From NCBI GenBank assembly GCA_009782915.1, contig WRIC01000005.1, positions 1 to 64,000 on the forward strand: a DNA stretch of 64,000 nt. The letters run 5' to 3'. The DNA is from Propionibacteriaceae bacterium (GTDB taxonomy: Bacteria > Actinomycetota > Actinomycetes > Propionibacteriales > Propionibacteriaceae). Position numbers and translations under genes: made by a program. Below the pieces are notes generated by a model. The model ran no database searches. It worked only from the letters and a program-made list of their open reading frames with translations, and was not told where the DNA came from. This document shows positions 17,468 through 43,346 of the stretch, one piece after another; position 1 is the stretch's first letter, and each line of letters begins with the position of its first letter.

Positions 17468-17497
17468 TCTGGACCCTGCGACTTCGCGCAGGGTGAC
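17468..17497 (+). repeat. REP-like palindrome, CCCTGCG type
   Basis: TCTGGACCCTGCG followed by ACTTCGCGCAGGGTGAC. CCCTGCG pairs with CGCAGGG across a short loop. It lies in the divergent gap between the aminopeptidase gene and argS and is one of at least a dozen related palindromes in the window. Confidence 0.75.
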
Positions 17498-33293: not shown

Positions 33294-33313
33294 GTGCCCC
33301 ACAGAAAGGGCAC
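33294..33313 (+). promoter_or_regulatory. Ribosome-site sequestering hairpin downstream of the TPP aptamer
   Basis: GTGCCC (33294-33299) pairs with GGGCAC (33308-33313). The right arm overlaps GAAAGGG, the ribosome-binding site of ykoE, so control is probably at translation initiation rather than termination; no T run is present. Confidence 0.55.
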
Positions 33314-33315
33314 AC

Positions 33316-33918
33316 ATGTCATCCACATCCAACCCACGTCGCTTGCGCTGGCGTGTTGTCGATATTGTCGTCGCCGCTGTTTTAGGCGTCGCGATCGGGT
33401 TCGTCTTCTTCGGATGGAATTTCGCTGGCAACTCACTTGGCGGCCTGCTGAAAACCTTCTATCCTCCGTTGAAAGGACTGGTTGGAGGTGTGTGGCTTCT
33501 CGGGGGCATCCTCGGCGGTTTAGTCATCCGCAAACCGGGGGCCGCTATTTTTGTGGAAATGGTGGCTGCCCTGGTTTCCACACTACTGGGCAGTCAGTGG
33601 GGGTTGACTGTTCTCATCAGTGGATTCCTTCAAGGTTTCGGCGCTGAACTAGTGTTCCTGCTCTTCTTCTATCGCGTGTGGAAACTACCAGTGGCGATGT
33701 TGGCTGGGGTTGTCGCTGCTGGGTTCGAATGGGTTTTTGAACTTATTGCCTGGTATGCCGGGTGGGTGTGGCCGCACAAACTAGTGTTGGGTGGCACACT
33801 CATGGTGTCGGGAGCTGTTCTTGCTGGTTTGCTCGGGTGGCTCATAGTGCGTGGCTTGGCTCGTACTGGGGCTTTGGACCGTTTCGAATCGGGACGTGAA
33901 GTACGCCAGCTCGTGTGA
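33316..33918 (+). CDS. ykoE: Thiamine-precursor ECF transporter S component YkoE
   Basis: A 200-aa integral membrane protein with about five to six hydrophobic segments and conserved aromatic motifs (FVFFGWNFAG, GLTVLISGFLQGFGAELVFLL, AGFEWVFELIAWYAGW). YkoE is the substrate-binding unit of an energy-coupling factor transporter for hydroxymethylpyrimidine or thiamine. Its identity is supported by the TPP riboswitch upstream and by the downstream fused ATPase and T-component genes. A GAAAGGG ribosome site lies five bases before the ATG. Only 13 bases separate it from ykoD. Confidence 0.9.
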   Translation: MSSTSNPRRLRWRVVDIVVAAVLGVAIGFVFFGWNFAGNSLGGLLKTFYPPLKGLVGGVWLLGGILGGLVIRKPGAAIFVEMVAALVSTLLGSQWGLTVLISGFLQGFGAELVFLLFFYRVWKLPVAMLAGVVAAGFEWVFELIAWYAGWVWPHKLVLGGTLMVSGAVLAGLLGWLIVRGLARTGALDRFESGREVRQLV

Positions 33919-33931
33919 GCAGGTGGTCGCG

Positions 33932-36061
33932 ATGTCTGGGCGAATCGTTGCTGAGGACTGGGGTTGGCGGCACGCCAGTCGCCGTGCCTGGGCTGTTCGC
34001 CATCTCAATTTCGTTATTGAACCGGGGGAACGGGTGTTGCTCTTGGGGGCATCCGGCGCGGGGAAATCAACTCTGTTGGCTGGTCTTGCTGGGGTTCTAG
34101 GCGATGGTGACGAGGGTGAGGAATCCGGGTCTCTTTTGATTGATGGTTTGGTTCCGCGTGATCTGAGAGGCCACGCTGCTTTGGTGATGCAGGACCCCGA
34201 ATCGCAGATAGTTTTGGCACGCATCGGCGATGAGGTGGCTTTCGGTTGCGAGAACATGTGTGTCCCGGTTGAAGAGATCTGGCCGCGTGTGGAACAGGGG
34301 TTGTCGTCAGTGGGACTCGCCTTGCCCCTGGGTCACCCCAGCGATCATCTCTCCGGTGGCCAACAGCAGCGCCTGGTGTTGGCCGGCGCACTCGCCATGG
34401 GTGCCGACCTCCTCCTCCTCGACGAACCCACAGCCAACCTCGACCCCGCCGGTGTCCACCAGGTACGCACCAGTATCGGTCAACTCTTGCAGGAACGGAG
34501 CAACTGTCACACGACTGCCCAGTCTGGACCCTGCGACTACGCGCAGGGAGACGGCGCAAGGGAGTATGTGCAACGTTACGACCCACCCCGTCATTCTGCA
34601 CAACCGCAACCCCGTGATTCTGCGCAACACCCACCCCGGAACCCTGCGCAACACCTACCCCGTCATTCTGCACAACCTTCACCCCGTCATTCTGCGCAAC
34701 ACCCACCCCGGAACCCTGCGCGACCCCTACCCCGTCATTCTGCACAACCTTCACCCCGTCATTCTGCGCAACCTTCACCCTGTCATTCTGCGCGTCAGTC
34801 GCAGAATCCAGAAACCACACCAACCCCGACACAACCTTGCTCCTCACACACCCTCATTGTCGTCGAGCACCGTTGCGATGTGTGGGCTGACCTGGTGGAT
34901 CGAGTCCTCGTCCTCGGCGCCGAGGGGCTCATCGCCGACGGCACCCCCCACGAGGTATTCACCTCCCGCGGTGACGAACTCGCCGCCATGGGAGTGTGGG
35001 TCCCACCCCGCACGACAACTGTTAATTCTGGACCCTGCGACTCCGCGCAGGGAGACGGCACAGGACAATGTACACAGCGAGACGGCACAGGGGAATGTGC
35101 GCAGCGAGACGGCACAGGGGAATGTGCACAGCATTGTGACCCACCACCAACCCATGGGTCAGTAGGTACGGCACCTACTGACCCACCCGCATCTGGTCTC
35201 TCCGCACGACACTCACCCCGTCTTTCCGTGGCACACCACCAAAGCCGTCATTCTGCGCAACCCCTACCCTGTCATTCTGCACAACCCCTACCCTGTCATT
35301 CTGCGCGTCAGTCGCAGAATCCAGAAACCACACCAACCCCGAATGAACCTTGCTCCTCGGACAACCCGATACTTTCCACCCAGGATCTCACCATCGGGTA
35401 CGGAACCAAAGCAGTAGCCACAAATCTCTTTATCGATATTCCGCAGGGGAAGTCCACGATCATCACCGGACCGAACGGGTCAGGGAAAACAACTCTGGCA
35501 CTAACCTTGGCTGGTCTTCTTCCCCCCCTGAGCGGAAAGGTCATCGCCAGTGACAACCTCGCCGGTTCGAGCCTCCCACACCCCCACACCTGGAGTTCAA
35601 AGGAATTGCTCACCCGGATTGGTACAGTCTTCCAATCCCCCGAACACCAATTCGTAGCAGGTACGGTCTTCGATGAGATCGCCATCGGCCTCAAAGCCCG
35701 GGGGGAGAAGAGAGGCCGAGAACCGCTGTCACGCCGGGCACACGATCCCAAAGAGAATATCGAGGAAAAGGTCAACTCGCTGCTTGATGAGTTCCATCTG
35801 ACCCACTTGGGGCGCGCTAACCCTTTCACCTTGTCGGGTGGGGAGAAGCGCCGACTCTCCGTGGCCACCGTACTGGCAGCTAACCCGCAGGTCATCATCC
35901 TGGATGAGCCCACCTTCGGACAGGACTACCTCACCTGGCAGGCCATGGTGTCCATGGTTGAGTCTCTGCGAGATCAGGGTACGACGATCATCTCGGTCAC
36001 CCATGACCAGGCCTATCTCGACACCCTCGGTGACCACCACATCAATCTGGGGGAACGATGA
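33932..36061 (+). CDS. ykoD: ECF transporter dual ATPase YkoD with two in-frame repeat insertions
   Basis: 709 aa, two ABC ATPase domains that power YkoE/YkoC import. Domain 1: Walker A GASGAGKST (about residue 43), Q-loop MQDPESQ, signature LSGGQQQRL, Walker B LLLLDEPTANLDP (about residue 165), and H-loop LIVVEH only at about residue 307. Domain 2: GPNGSGKTT, FQSPEHQ, LSGGEKRRL, VIILDEPTFGQD, SVTHD. A foreign Pro/His/Ser-rich stretch of about 100-115 aa splits domain 1 between Walker B and the H-loop; it includes nine 8-residue units such as PRHSAQPS. A similar stretch forms the linker between domains. Both come from palindromic repeat DNA, yet the frame stays open. Start ATG 33932 has AGGTGG upstream. 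The stop overlaps ykoC. Confidence 0.9.
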   Translation: MSGRIVAEDWGWRHASRRAWAVRHLNFVIEPGERVLLLGASGAGKSTLLAGLAGVLGDGDEGEESGSLLIDGLVPRDLRGHAALVMQDPESQIVLARIGDEVAFGCENMCVPVEEIWPRVEQGLSSVGLALPLGHPSDHLSGGQQQRLVLAGALAMGADLLLLDEPTANLDPAGVHQVRTSIGQLLQERSNCHTTAQSGPCDYAQGDGAREYVQRYDPPRHSAQPQPRDSAQHPPRNPAQHLPRHSAQPSPRHSAQHPPRNPARPLPRHSAQPSPRHSAQPSPCHSARQSQNPETTPTPTQPCSSHTLIVVEHRCDVWADLVDRVLVLGAEGLIADGTPHEVFTSRGDELAAMGVWVPPRTTTVNSGPCDSAQGDGTGQCTQRDGTGECAQRDGTGECAQHCDPPPTHGSVGTAPTDPPASGLSARHSPRLSVAHHQSRHSAQPLPCHSAQPLPCHSARQSQNPETTPTPNEPCSSDNPILSTQDLTIGYGTKAVATNLFIDIPQGKSTIITGPNGSGKTTLALTLAGLLPPLSGKVIASDNLAGSSLPHPHTWSSKELLTRIGTVFQSPEHQFVAGTVFDEIAIGLKARGEKRGREPLSRRAHDPKENIEEKVNSLLDEFHLTHLGRANPFTLSGGEKRRLSVATVLAANPQVIILDEPTFGQDYLTWQAMVSMVESLRDQGTTIISVTHDQAYLDTLGDHHINLGER
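34523..34552 (+). repeat. REP-like palindrome inside ykoD (CCCTGCG type, insertion 1 left end)
   Basis: TCTGGACCCTGCG then ACTACGCGCAGGGAGAC; CCCTGCG pairs with CGCAGGG. It is translated as SGPCDYAQGD within the first ATPase domain. Confidence 0.75.
34586..34801 (+). repeat. 24-bp tandem array inside ykoD
   Basis: Nine consecutive 24-base units built on CCCCGTCATTCTGCGCAA, encoding PRHSAQPx variants. The core GTCATTCTGCGC is the left half of the palindrome that ends the insertion. The period is a multiple of three, so gain or loss of units keeps the frame. Confidence 0.85.
34782..34812 (+). repeat. REP-like palindrome inside ykoD (ATTCTGCG type, insertion 1 right end)
   Basis: GTCATTCTGCG and CGCAGAATCCAGA form inverted arms around a 7-base loop. 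The following about 30 bases are almost identical to those after the copy at 35295-35325. Confidence 0.75.
35027..35056 (+). repeat. REP-like palindrome inside ykoD (CCCTGCG type, insertion 2 left end)
   Basis: TCTGGACCCTGCG then ACTCCGCGCAGGGAGAC, one base different from the copy at 34523. It is followed by 27-base units encoding RDGTGECAQ. Confidence 0.75.
35295..35325 (+). repeat. REP-like palindrome inside ykoD (ATTCTGCG type, insertion 2 right end)
   Basis: The same GTCATTCTGCG / CGCAGAATCCAGA palindrome as at 34782-34812, preceded by three partial 24-base units and followed by the same downstream bases. Confidence 0.75.
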
Positions 36062-36897
36062 CAGCGCAAAACAGTGGGGACGGTACCGTTTTGTCACAGC
36101 CAAGTTGGACAGCGGCGCCTGTCCCCACGGCTCTTGATCGGGTGAATCCGGTGACTCGGTTGGGGGCGGCGATGGTCCTCACTTTTCCGTTGCTCATATC
36201 CTTGGACTGGGTGAGTGCTGTGGTGGTGATCGCCTTGGAATTGGTGGTGTGGTTGGCTCTCGCTCCTCGACATATTGGGCCACGCCTGCGTACTCTCGTC
36301 AAAAGATCCATCCCCTTTGTGATCGCTGCTCCCCTGGCGGGTTTGTCTCTTGCGCTCTACGGGAAACCTGCCGGTGAGGTGTTTTTCTCTTGGGGGTTCA
36401 TCGTCATCTCTGAGCAATCGCTGAGTTACGCCGCCGCTGTGACTGCGCGCGTCATTGCTCTCGGCATGGCTGTTGTCATCACCCTGACGGGGGTTGATCC
36501 CACAGACATGGCCGATGGGCTTGCCCAGGTGTGGCATCTTCCAGCCCGCTTTGTGTTGAGCACCCTCGCATCAGTACGGCTCCTCAACCGACTGGGGGAA
36601 GATTGGAGAACCATGTCGTTGGCCCGCCGCGCTCGCGGACTCGGTGACCAGCGCCGACTCCACCGCTACGCCACCATGGGTTTCGCTCTTCTGGTGACCG
36701 CCATTCGACGCGGTTCGACTTTAGCAACAGCGATGGAGGTACGCGGGTTCGGGCGTGGGAAACGCTCGTGGGCCCGGCCATCAACCGTGGGTTGGGCTGA
36801 CGCGGTATGTCTGCTGATCGCTTGTGGAATCGTCGTAGCTGGTCTGGTTGTCGCCGTTGCGACCAATCATTTCAGGTGGATTGGTAGTGTTCTGTAG
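36058..36897 (+). CDS. ykoC: ECF transporter T component YkoC (EcfT/CbiQ family)
   Basis: A 279-aa membrane protein that couples the ATPase subunit to YkoE. It has about five to six hydrophobic segments (LISLDWVSAVVVIALELVVWLAL, FVIAAPLAGLSLALYG, ADAVCLLIACGIVVAGLVVAVA). The coupling helices carry the family's Ala-Arg-Gly-type motifs: ARRARGLGDQRRLHRYA and AMEVRGFGRGKR. Its ATG overlaps the ykoD stop (ATGA, 36058-36061), giving the gene order S, A-A, T under one TPP riboswitch. Confidence 0.9.
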   Translation: MTAQNSGDGTVLSQPSWTAAPVPTALDRVNPVTRLGAAMVLTFPLLISLDWVSAVVVIALELVVWLALAPRHIGPRLRTLVKRSIPFVIAAPLAGLSLALYGKPAGEVFFSWGFIVISEQSLSYAAAVTARVIALGMAVVITLTGVDPTDMADGLAQVWHLPARFVLSTLASVRLLNRLGEDWRTMSLARRARGLGDQRRLHRYATMGFALLVTAIRRGSTLATAMEVRGFGRGKRSWARPSTVGWADAVCLLIACGIVVAGLVVAVATNHFRWIGSVL

Positions 36898-36898
36898 C

Positions 36899-37453
36899 TC
36901 AAATGAAGGAAGACACCAGAATGATAGCCCCGATGAAGTAAATCAGTAAGAAGGCGAGTCCAATACTGACAAGGATCGTTGAAATTGTGCCGAAGGCATG
37001 CCCGACTGATAGTGGCCCTGTTGATCTGTATTGACCAGCATTGCACTCCTTTAATGCATTACGCCCCATAATCCATGCAACCGGACCTAAGGGCCAGAAG
37101 ACGAACAACCCGAGTATCCCTAGGACAAGAACAGCTCCTGCCCGTGGATGCTCCGGCTGCAGGGGTATGGAATAAACCGGCATGACTGGATACACAGGCA
37201 CCATGGGGTACGGGGCGTAGGGCTGGGGCATAACAACAGGTGGTCCAACCTGTGGCGGGGGTGTAGCCACCTGCGGGGGAAAAGGTTGCTGCGGTGGAAC
37301 CTGTGGTTGCACCACCGGAGGCGAACCTGGTGGTGGAGAAAATCTCGGCGCCGGTGGTTGCTGGGCGACCGTTGGTCGGGTTGGGTCAAAGGGCGAATAG
37401 TCGCCTGTTGGAGCAAACCCTGGTCCTGGGTGACCATTGCCGTACTCGCTCAT
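36899..37453 (-). CDS. Proline-rich DUF4190-like membrane protein (small)
   Basis: A 184-aa protein with a Pro/Gln/Val-rich N-terminal half (PPQQPFPPQVATPPPQVGPP) and two hydrophobic segments at the C-terminal half (AGAVLVLGILGLFVFWPLGPVAWIMGRNAL and GTISTILVSIGLAFLLIYFIGAIILV). The GLFVFWPLGPVAWIMGRNALKE segment matches the DUF4190-type turn in many actinobacterial proteins. Function unknown. It ends convergently two bases from the ykoC stop codon. It lies 26 bases downstream of the clpC start side in the same direction as clpC, but its own start is on the far side of nothing regulatory that I can see. Confidence 0.7.
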   Translation of the reverse strand: MSEYGNGHPGPGFAPTGDYSPFDPTRPTVAQQPPAPRFSPPPGSPPVVQPQVPPQQPFPPQVATPPPQVGPPVVMPQPYAPYPMVPVYPVMPVYSIPLQPEHPRAGAVLVLGILGLFVFWPLGPVAWIMGRNALKECNAGQYRSTGPLSVGHAFGTISTILVSIGLAFLLIYFIGAIILVSSFI

Positions 37454-42860: not shown

Positions 42861-42890
42861 TCTGGACCCTGCGACTTCGCGCAGGGAGAC
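42861..42890 (+). repeat. REP-like palindrome, CCCTGCG type, opening a repeat cluster
   Basis: TCTGGACCCTGCG then ACTTCGCGCAGGGAGAC, eight bases after the hom stop codon. A mirror-image copy closes the cluster at 43106-43135. Confidence 0.75.
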
Positions 42891-42964
42891 GGGGTTGGAG
42901 CGCAGGGAGACGGGGTTGGAGCGCAGGGAGACGGGGTTGGAGCGCAGAGAGACGGGGTTGGGTT
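42881..42964 (+). repeat. Four tandem 21-bp units
   Basis: Units GCAGGGAGACGGGGTTGGAGC begin at 42881, 42902, 42923 and 42944 (the last with one change). They reuse the right arm of the adjoining palindrome, as the arrays in ykoD do. Confidence 0.8.
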
Positions 42965-42992
42965 GCGCATAGCAGGGAGACGGAGTTGGCAG

Positions 42993-43024
42993 TGTGTCAA
43001 AACACCCCCGTCCCCTGTGACACA
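42993..43024. repeat. TGTGTCA...TGACACA inverted repeat
   Basis: TGTGTCA (42993-42999) and TGACACA (43018-43024) enclose a core with CCCCGTCCCC. It resembles the hairpin at 58081-58116. Confidence 0.55.
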
Positions 43025-43105
43025 CCGCCGTTTCCCTGCCACCGCACCGCCGCTCCGTCCTGCCACTGCTCCACCGTCGCCCTGCCACCGTACGGCCGTA
43101 CCGCT

Positions 43106-43135
43106 GTCACCCTGCGCGAAGTCGCAGGGTCCAGA
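43106..43135 (-). repeat. REP-like palindrome, CCCTGCG type, inverted
   Basis: The reverse complement of the common form: GTCACCCTGCGCG then AAGTCGCAGGGTCCAGA. It is paired in opposite orientation with 42861-42890 to bound about 275 bp. Confidence 0.75.
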
Positions 43136-43154
43136 AATCACATTTGAACAACTG

Positions 43155-43346
43155 TGGAGTCTGGATTCCGCGACTACGCACGGAATGACCAGCAGGTGAC
43201 TATGGAGTCTGGATTCCGCGACTACGCACGGAATGACCAGCAGGTGACTATGGAGTCTGGATTCCGCGACTACGCACGGAATGACCAGCAGGTGACTGTG
43301 GAGTCTGGATTCCGCGACTACGCACGGAATGACCAGCGGGTGACTC
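43155..43346 (+). repeat. Four tandem 48-bp units each with an ATTCCG-type palindrome
   Basis: Units start at 43155, 43203, 43251 and 43299. Each contains TCTGGATTCCGCG and ACTACGCACGGAATGAC, where ATTCCG pairs with CGGAAT, plus a spacer CAGCAGGTGACTAT. Because 48 is divisible by three an open frame runs through it, but nothing suggests translation. There are no variable spacers, so it is not CRISPR. Confidence 0.85.

Follow-up and report, generated by a model that had tools for sequence, protein, structure and literature searches.

In-frame CGTC-tagged REPs with half-hairpin arrays in the ykoD-like ATPase gene of a Propionibacteriaceae bacterium

The gene for a ykoD-like ECF transporter ATPase in the window (the whole 64,000-nucleotide stretch of contig WRIC01000005.1 analyzed here) carries two composite, in-frame inserts made of short palindromes and of tandem arrays of half palindromes. 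To judge from their sequence, these palindromes probably represent a further family of the CGTC-tagged REP superfamily, distinct from each of families 1-4. We consider it probable, at roughly four chances in five, that CGTC REPs spread in this genome and inserted in ykoD, that the arrays then grew in place, and that, within genes, the units that preserve the frame were kept.

Two composite inserts in the ykoD gene

The ykoD gene lies between a PF09819 gene (33316-33918) and a CbiQ gene (36058-36897), both recognized by profile matches. From an alternative GTG start at 33851, the ORF list gives an open frame of 736 codons up to the stop at 36061, and this frame runs through both inserts, as the preliminary description of this DNA had stated. 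In sequence searches, domain 1 finds its closest solved relatives among EcfA and CbiO chains, and in a Foldseek search the whole two-domain model retrieves two-ATPase proteins (such as DppD/OppD) at the top and the single domains retrieve CbiO. Among the matches listed, the nearest named YkoD relatives are mostly actinobacterial, the best one coming from Alpinimonas at 51% identity (the species itself may be left out of this list). A search for known RNA families yielded no match up to E = 1 within 33300-37000. The features of the gene are as follows.

33932..36061, + strand: ykoD-like ECF transporter ATPase with two ABC domains (ORF; ABC_tran 3.9e-48 over two stretches)
34502..34843, + strand: insert 1 relative to orthologues, 342 bp, 114 codons (191-304 from the ATG at 33932)
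34523..34554, - strand: left REP of insert 1, CCCTGCG stem type, core 34528-34552, tag inward
34582..34793, + strand: half-REP tandem array of insert 1, 24-bp units, 72-bp higher-order period (TRF)
34781..34813, + strand: right REP of insert 1, ATTCTGCG stem type, tag TGTC, core 34782-34807
34814..34845, + strand: flank of insert 1 common to insert 2
35026..35058, - strand: left REP of insert 2, CCCTGCG stem type, core 35032-35056, tag inward
35048..35132, - strand: left half-REP array of insert 2, 27-bp units (TRF)
35155..35185, no strand assigned: extra hairpin in insert 2, 13-bp perfect arms, 5-nt loop
35247..35306, + strand: right half-REP array of insert 2, 24-bp units (TRF)
35294..35326, + strand: right REP of insert 2, ATTCTGCG stem type, tag TGTC, core 35295-35320
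35327..35358, + strand: flank of insert 2 common to insert 1

Each insert is thus a pair of REPs, one with a CCC stem and one with a TTC stem, whose CGTC/TGTC tags face inward; between the two lie tandem units that consist of the tag-side half of the hairpin and a short spacer. This confirms the architecture given in the preliminary description: a CCCTGCG palindrome at the left, 24- or 27-bp tandem units, an ATTCTGCG palindrome at the right, and a nearly identical right flank. The size of 290-300 bp given there holds for the distance from REP to REP; compared with orthologues, insert 1 is longer (342 bp). Among the BLAST places listed, the extra hairpin of insert 2 matches nothing but its own complement. 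Within an insert, the two outer arms are inverted matches of one another (16-17 nt, 88% identity). Of the two features by which a MITE is recognized, terminal inverted repeats and target duplication, the inserts show inverted ends, and no empty site close enough to judge a duplication or the exact joint was found.

Behind the two right stems, the inserts align with 35 identities over 38 nt, and the 14-nt core of this common flank is absent from every other locus fetched by that stage. The inserts are therefore not independent: one of them probably owes at least some of its sequence to copying from the other, for which a local duplication or a gene conversion could be responsible.

Profile matches and the orthologue alignment place insert 1 between Walker B/D-loop and the H-loop of ATPase domain 1, more precisely between the helix that follows the D-loop and the strand that precedes the H-loop, and insert 2 in the domain linker, in agreement with the initial assignment. 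Insert 1, delimited at 34502-34843 by alignment with homologues, is missing in all 13 congeners with an aligned ORF covering the site, and no aligned residue is lost there. The G014 gene, the frame of which was not recovered in that alignment, likewise jumps straight from residue 189 of the query to residue 306. In a 19-row alignment (the window protein and 18 proteins from named genomes, out of 35 fetched loci), the majority consensus passes the site without an insert. The sharing of the loop with unrelated genera that had been named as evidence against an insertion was thus not encountered in these comparisons. The linker that harbors insert 2 varies from 26 to 95 residues, measured from GVWxP to the GY-type motif of the next domain, in seven congeners (8 of 14 loci were printed, and L028 was left out because of a wrong anchor). 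In the G006 orthologue, the linker holds two decayed in-frame REPs, recognized by eye, so this site received REPs either in each of the two species or from their common ancestor onward.

An AlphaFold model built from the 19-row alignment has a mean pLDDT of 72.6. Most 10-residue blocks of both ATPase domains score 85-97, with dips at 101-110 and 591-610, whereas the insert residues 197-258, 260-297 and 363-474 fall below 50; a helix that ends at residue 191 and a strand at 307 border insert 1. The inserts are accordingly predicted to be disordered and both ATPase cores to be folded, in line with the tolerated disordered loop proposed at the outset. The expectation that an insertion between Walker B and the H-loop would be damaging is not obviously borne out, given that no aligned residue is lost and that the core is modeled with confidence.

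Repeats might have been mis-joined within ykoD during assembly, the draft consisting of 33 contigs and such sequences being difficult to assemble. Nevertheless, the two inserts differ in their arrays and internal hairpin, the flanks hold the ykoD frame exactly, and comparable structures, built with different spacers, are present at further loci, which makes an artefact very improbable.

The REP family in the genome and beyond

The window belongs to contig C5 of a 1.64-Mb draft genome (G000; 33 contigs, 93.5% complete). A BLAST search with the insert region returned 94 places in this genome, the query included (40 of 207 first-look candidates were scored), and a REP pattern with up to 2 mismatches has 275 matches, compared with 0 for the reversed-pattern control, so that chance is excluded. 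Rather than a peculiarity of ykoD, the inserts are part of a 275-copy family that is found in frame in other genes of the genome as well. Within the genus (19 genomes), matches are present in G003 (117), G006 (62), G005 (21) and G012 (4), and the other 14 congeners have none. In an order-level scan, matches were detected in 4 of 37 genera: G213, which belongs to a different genus of the family, has 161 copies, and another two show 1-2 weak matches; in a phylum sample, the only genome with a match was G000 itself. A widely spread REP family was accordingly rejected (5/19 genus, 6/293 order and 1/396 phylum genomes).

From 131 cores in 294 kb of sampled sequence, the consensus CC-CGTC-[A/T](TT/CC)CTGCGC-GAAG-TCGCAG(AA/GG)T-CCAGA with matching stem arms was derived, several positions of which were fixed by the selecting regex. 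The CCA tail behind the stem was left free and is nearly invariant (C 1.00, C 0.99, A 0.99). In the tag, C occupies position -1 in 88% and the fourth tag position in 100% of the profiled cores, GT being fixed by the regex and the last C restricted to not-T. The stems come in three types, TTC, CCC and CCG, each with its matching partner arm, and the loop is 6 nt long in 130 of 143 cases. Among 62 close REP pairs, the tags lie outside in 31, the largest class, inside in 15 and in the same direction in 16; the ykoD inserts fall in the tags-inside class. There are 24 tags-outside doublets with a 33-35-bp spacer, and all 24 combine a CCC with a TTC stem.

These features resemble those of the CGTC REPs described by Di Nocera, De Gregorio and Rocco (2013, PMC3733652), which, in that account, occur predominantly as dimers with tags outside (termed HH), have no RAYT and spread by means not known. 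The likeness covers the CGTC/TGTC tag, the 8-bp stem, the CCA tail, tags-outside and mixed-stem dimers, the absence of a RAYT, and intragenic in-frame dimers with two insertions per gene. The elements described here differ in the 6-nt loop, compared with 4-5 nt in families 1-4, and in the stem: families 1-4 have A-T at the first and second stem positions, whereas the CCC stems lack the second A-T pair (PMC3733652). It is this combination of loop length and differing stems (CCC types, with T/T first positions common) that sets the palindromes apart from CGTC families 1-4. The host appears to differ as well, being actinobacterial here, whereas the main text of that paper does not contain the word actinobacterium.

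For CGTC REPs, dimers inserted in frame, clusters that code for 43-82 residues and genes hit by two insertions have been reported (PMC3733652); the two-copy in-frame case, of which the preliminary description knew no example in one ECF ATPase, thus has published precedents in other species. The analogy with Rickettsia palindromic elements drawn there applies at the superfamily level, by classification: RPE-4 is filed under CGTC-4 and RPE-6 under CGTC-1 (PMC3733652), and both are inserted in frame inside proteins. Overall, ykoD offers a well-built example of a known phenomenon, the insertion of CGTC REPs in frame; the host group appears to be new, and the mode of local growth is unusual.

REPINs (Bertels and Rainey 2011, PMC3116915) are similar in that inverted REP doublets occur at fixed spacing and tandem clusters are also described; unlike the present elements, they have a RAYT transposase, and the tandem units described there are whole REPs or REPINs rather than halves. 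No PF01797 (Y1_Tnp/RAYT) match was found in the REP-rich genomes G000, G003, G005 and G006 (drafts, 93-98% complete). In the genus, PF01797 is present in 2 of 19 genomes, G012 and G014, and beside their nine Y1_Tnp loci the CGTC-REP pattern identified no hairpin, only one chance CGTC-like string (L085). A RAYT-driven REPIN was accordingly rejected: the tag is CGTC, not GTAG, and the four REP-richest genomes gave no match to PF01797.

The window contains further repeats. At 42861-43345, a dense REP cluster contains, besides a 21-bp half array, a 48-bp sequence in four tandem copies, every one of them with a full REP. A second repeat, GGGGACGGTACYGTTTTGTCAC, the paired copies of which are palindromic by eye, occurs at 36076-36097 of the window and at 34 other places in the genome (35 copies at up to 3 mismatches; control, 0); one copy begins the CbiQ-like gene.

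One-sided arrays of half hairpins

A pattern search identified 39 arrays of at least 2 half units in the sampled G000 sequence, which was picked by similarity to the ykoD inserts; the count of 39 in 294 kb should therefore not be read as a density for the whole genome. In 37 of the 39, the array ends in one complete hairpin, whereas none of the 75 earlier units is complete. Within an array, the spacers share an identity of 0.91, vs 0.44 between arrays. The last half unit departs from the terminal hairpin 1 base past CTGCG in 25 of the 39 arrays and within 3 bases in 35, that is, in the loop. Adjacent half-unit pairs, counted genome-wide, number 86 in G000, 21 in G012 and at most 5 in the other congeners. 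(Stretches from G003 and G005 and most from G006 were picked with the same query; four of the nine G006 stretches came from the pattern-match list.) The G012 arrays, examined by eye in six stretches (L161-L166), consist of 20-bp half units with another stem, again of the tag side; they finish in one full, long-looped hairpin, and the repeat reaches a few bases into the long loop. In both species, G000 and G012, array growth is thus one-sided, and in the former it stops at the tip of the hairpin.

Single arms follow the same trend less sharply: under the strict pattern, 2 of 95 3' arms are lone, and under a laxer pattern, which may also catch a long-loop REP variant, 23 of 176 3' arms vs 92 of 235 5' arms lack a partner, and we therefore rely on the array counts. 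A replication-strand bias was considered and dismissed as not telling, array direction following local GC skew in 25 of 39 cases, a relation confounded by genes.

We propose that REP copies would insert at places that tolerate them, in ykoD a surface loop of domain 1 and an already variable domain linker, and that DNA synthesis would stall at the hairpin loop, with slippage or template switching duplicating the tag-side half and the adjoining DNA in tandem. Such a stall would leave nearly every array ending in one complete hairpin. Slippage at hairpins is a known route, proposed by the authors who described hairpin-containing VNTRs in Wolbachia (PMC3287509); those tandem repeats also carry hairpins, of 23 bp, but their periods are 105-141 bp and the hairpins are whole within the period.

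Growth by an active enzyme, for example, a putative transposase of the CGTC REPs, that cuts the hairpin tip and extends from it instead of passive slippage, would account for the one-sidedness and the sharp break at the loop, as well as for the fact that G012, too, has one-sided arrays of half units, built on another stem and spacer. Given that no candidate enzyme was found, that the CGTC-REP pattern identified no hairpin beside any Y1_Tnp locus of G012 or G014 (nine in all) and that slippage provides an established path, we hold this unlikely. We are similarly doubtful about a more general scheme, in which CGTC REPs would grow in place: a directional process, beginning or halting at the hairpin tip, would recopy the tag-side half together with ~7-14 adjoining bases and give each insertion its private minisatellite, and it would do so in no fewer than two species whose stems differ.

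The half-hairpin pattern looks unusual. In a limited search of titles and abstracts of the open-licence literature, we did not find such arrays described, and we know of none made of half units among Rickettsia palindromic elements. The CGTC REP paper (PMC3733652), as far as the parts consulted go, holds no mention of long half-hairpin arrays.

Reading frame, invaded genes and the fate of ykoD

Unit lengths differ between arrays inside and outside of genes. In Pfam-supported frames, 11 of 11 arrays (three in ykoD and eight in seven other ORFs) have a unit length divisible by three vs 7 of 26 other arrays (Fisher 3.7e-5), a P-value that is too strong because arrays were assigned to the classes manually, when their periods were already known, and because ORFs cross arrays of such units more easily. 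Counted per gene, the figures are 8/8 vs 7/26 (3.5e-4). For ykoD, two pattern rows were merged into one and the 27-bp array was taken from TRF. Two ambiguous arrays N-terminal to a domain (L098, 24 bp; L103, 23 bp) were omitted; when counted as coding, they change the result to 12/13 (1.4e-4). Outside ykoD, six of the eight coding arrays follow the Pfam domain on its C-terminal side, where an ORF passes more readily through units divisible by three. These observations suggest, though they do not prove, that selection on frame keeps arrays with units divisible by three in genes; in the proposed mechanism, it would be mainly such units that survive there, the frame being preserved.

In-frame REPs within or between stretches of one Pfam domain are present in an oligopeptide-type ABC ATPase (L118:5020-6099), a DUF2344 protein (L109:5494-6366), an enoyl-CoA hydratase (L093:316-1407) and a Ppx/GppA protein (L098:3782-4963), and behind the Pfam domain in truB, folP and others. 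The truB gene (L112:3005-4453) has a REP array near its C-terminus, and the CGTC REP paper also names truB as a repeated target, hit by a REP or RPE-1 in four further species (PMC3733652). For the second repeat, GGGGACGGTACYGTTTTGTCAC, peptides of the GDGTVLSQECDKTVPSP type occur in frame in L091:3249-4892, with a variant inside the Pterin_bind match of L116:1855-3276. In the window, a REP at 17473-17497 falls in the N-terminal part of the arginyl-tRNA synthetase open frame, ahead of the first Pfam domain, and may sit upstream of the true start.

Inserted peptides might have been recruited for a function, for instance, to tune the transporter, either as linkers of variable length or as loops that bind a partner. 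The in-frame REP remnants in the G006 linker and the unit lengths divisible by three would fit such a role. However, the same elements reside in unrelated proteins and outside Pfam-supported frames, the inserts are predicted to be disordered, and insert 1 is private to the species among 13 aligned congeners; recruitment thus seems quite improbable.

Decay of the gene deserves more weight, even though we still regard it as rather unlikely: ykoD could be a pseudogene in a reduced genome, its frame open only because REP sequence contains few stops. Read tag-first, REPs indeed show few stops by eye, and the draft, 93.5% complete at 1.64 Mb, is below the listed sizes of 18 congeners. In the Ppx/GppA protein of this genome, the expected DxGGGSTE motif is missing where the REP cluster sits, and yet the frame is open; the motif is kept in 8 of 8 congeners printed (eleven were tried, and three, including G006, were not found by pattern). 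An open frame is therefore no proof of function. Against decay stands the conservation of ykoD. Walker A, Q-loop, signature, Walker B and H-loop His columns of both domains are identical in 19 of 19 aligned rows, second codon positions differ far less than third positions from five congeners (0.13-0.22 vs 0.48-0.71), the PF09819 and CbiQ neighbors are kept, and 3 of 3 ykoD arrays have units divisible by three. Across three ykoD segments, in 5 of 14 congeners, dN is 0.22-0.38 and dS is near 1, higher or saturated; with dS saturated, these values are still compatible with a recent loss of function.

The one-sided arrays that break at the hairpin loop are a physical clue to events at CGTC REP hairpins. 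If an enzyme does cut the tip, the arrays would be the first trace of the movement of CGTC REPs, which have no transposase of their own. This small genome is, moreover, a non-Rickettsia case in which palindromic repeats populate protein-coding genes, and it allows a comparison of how proteins take up REP loops, including a REP in the place of a conserved motif, as in Ppx/GppA.
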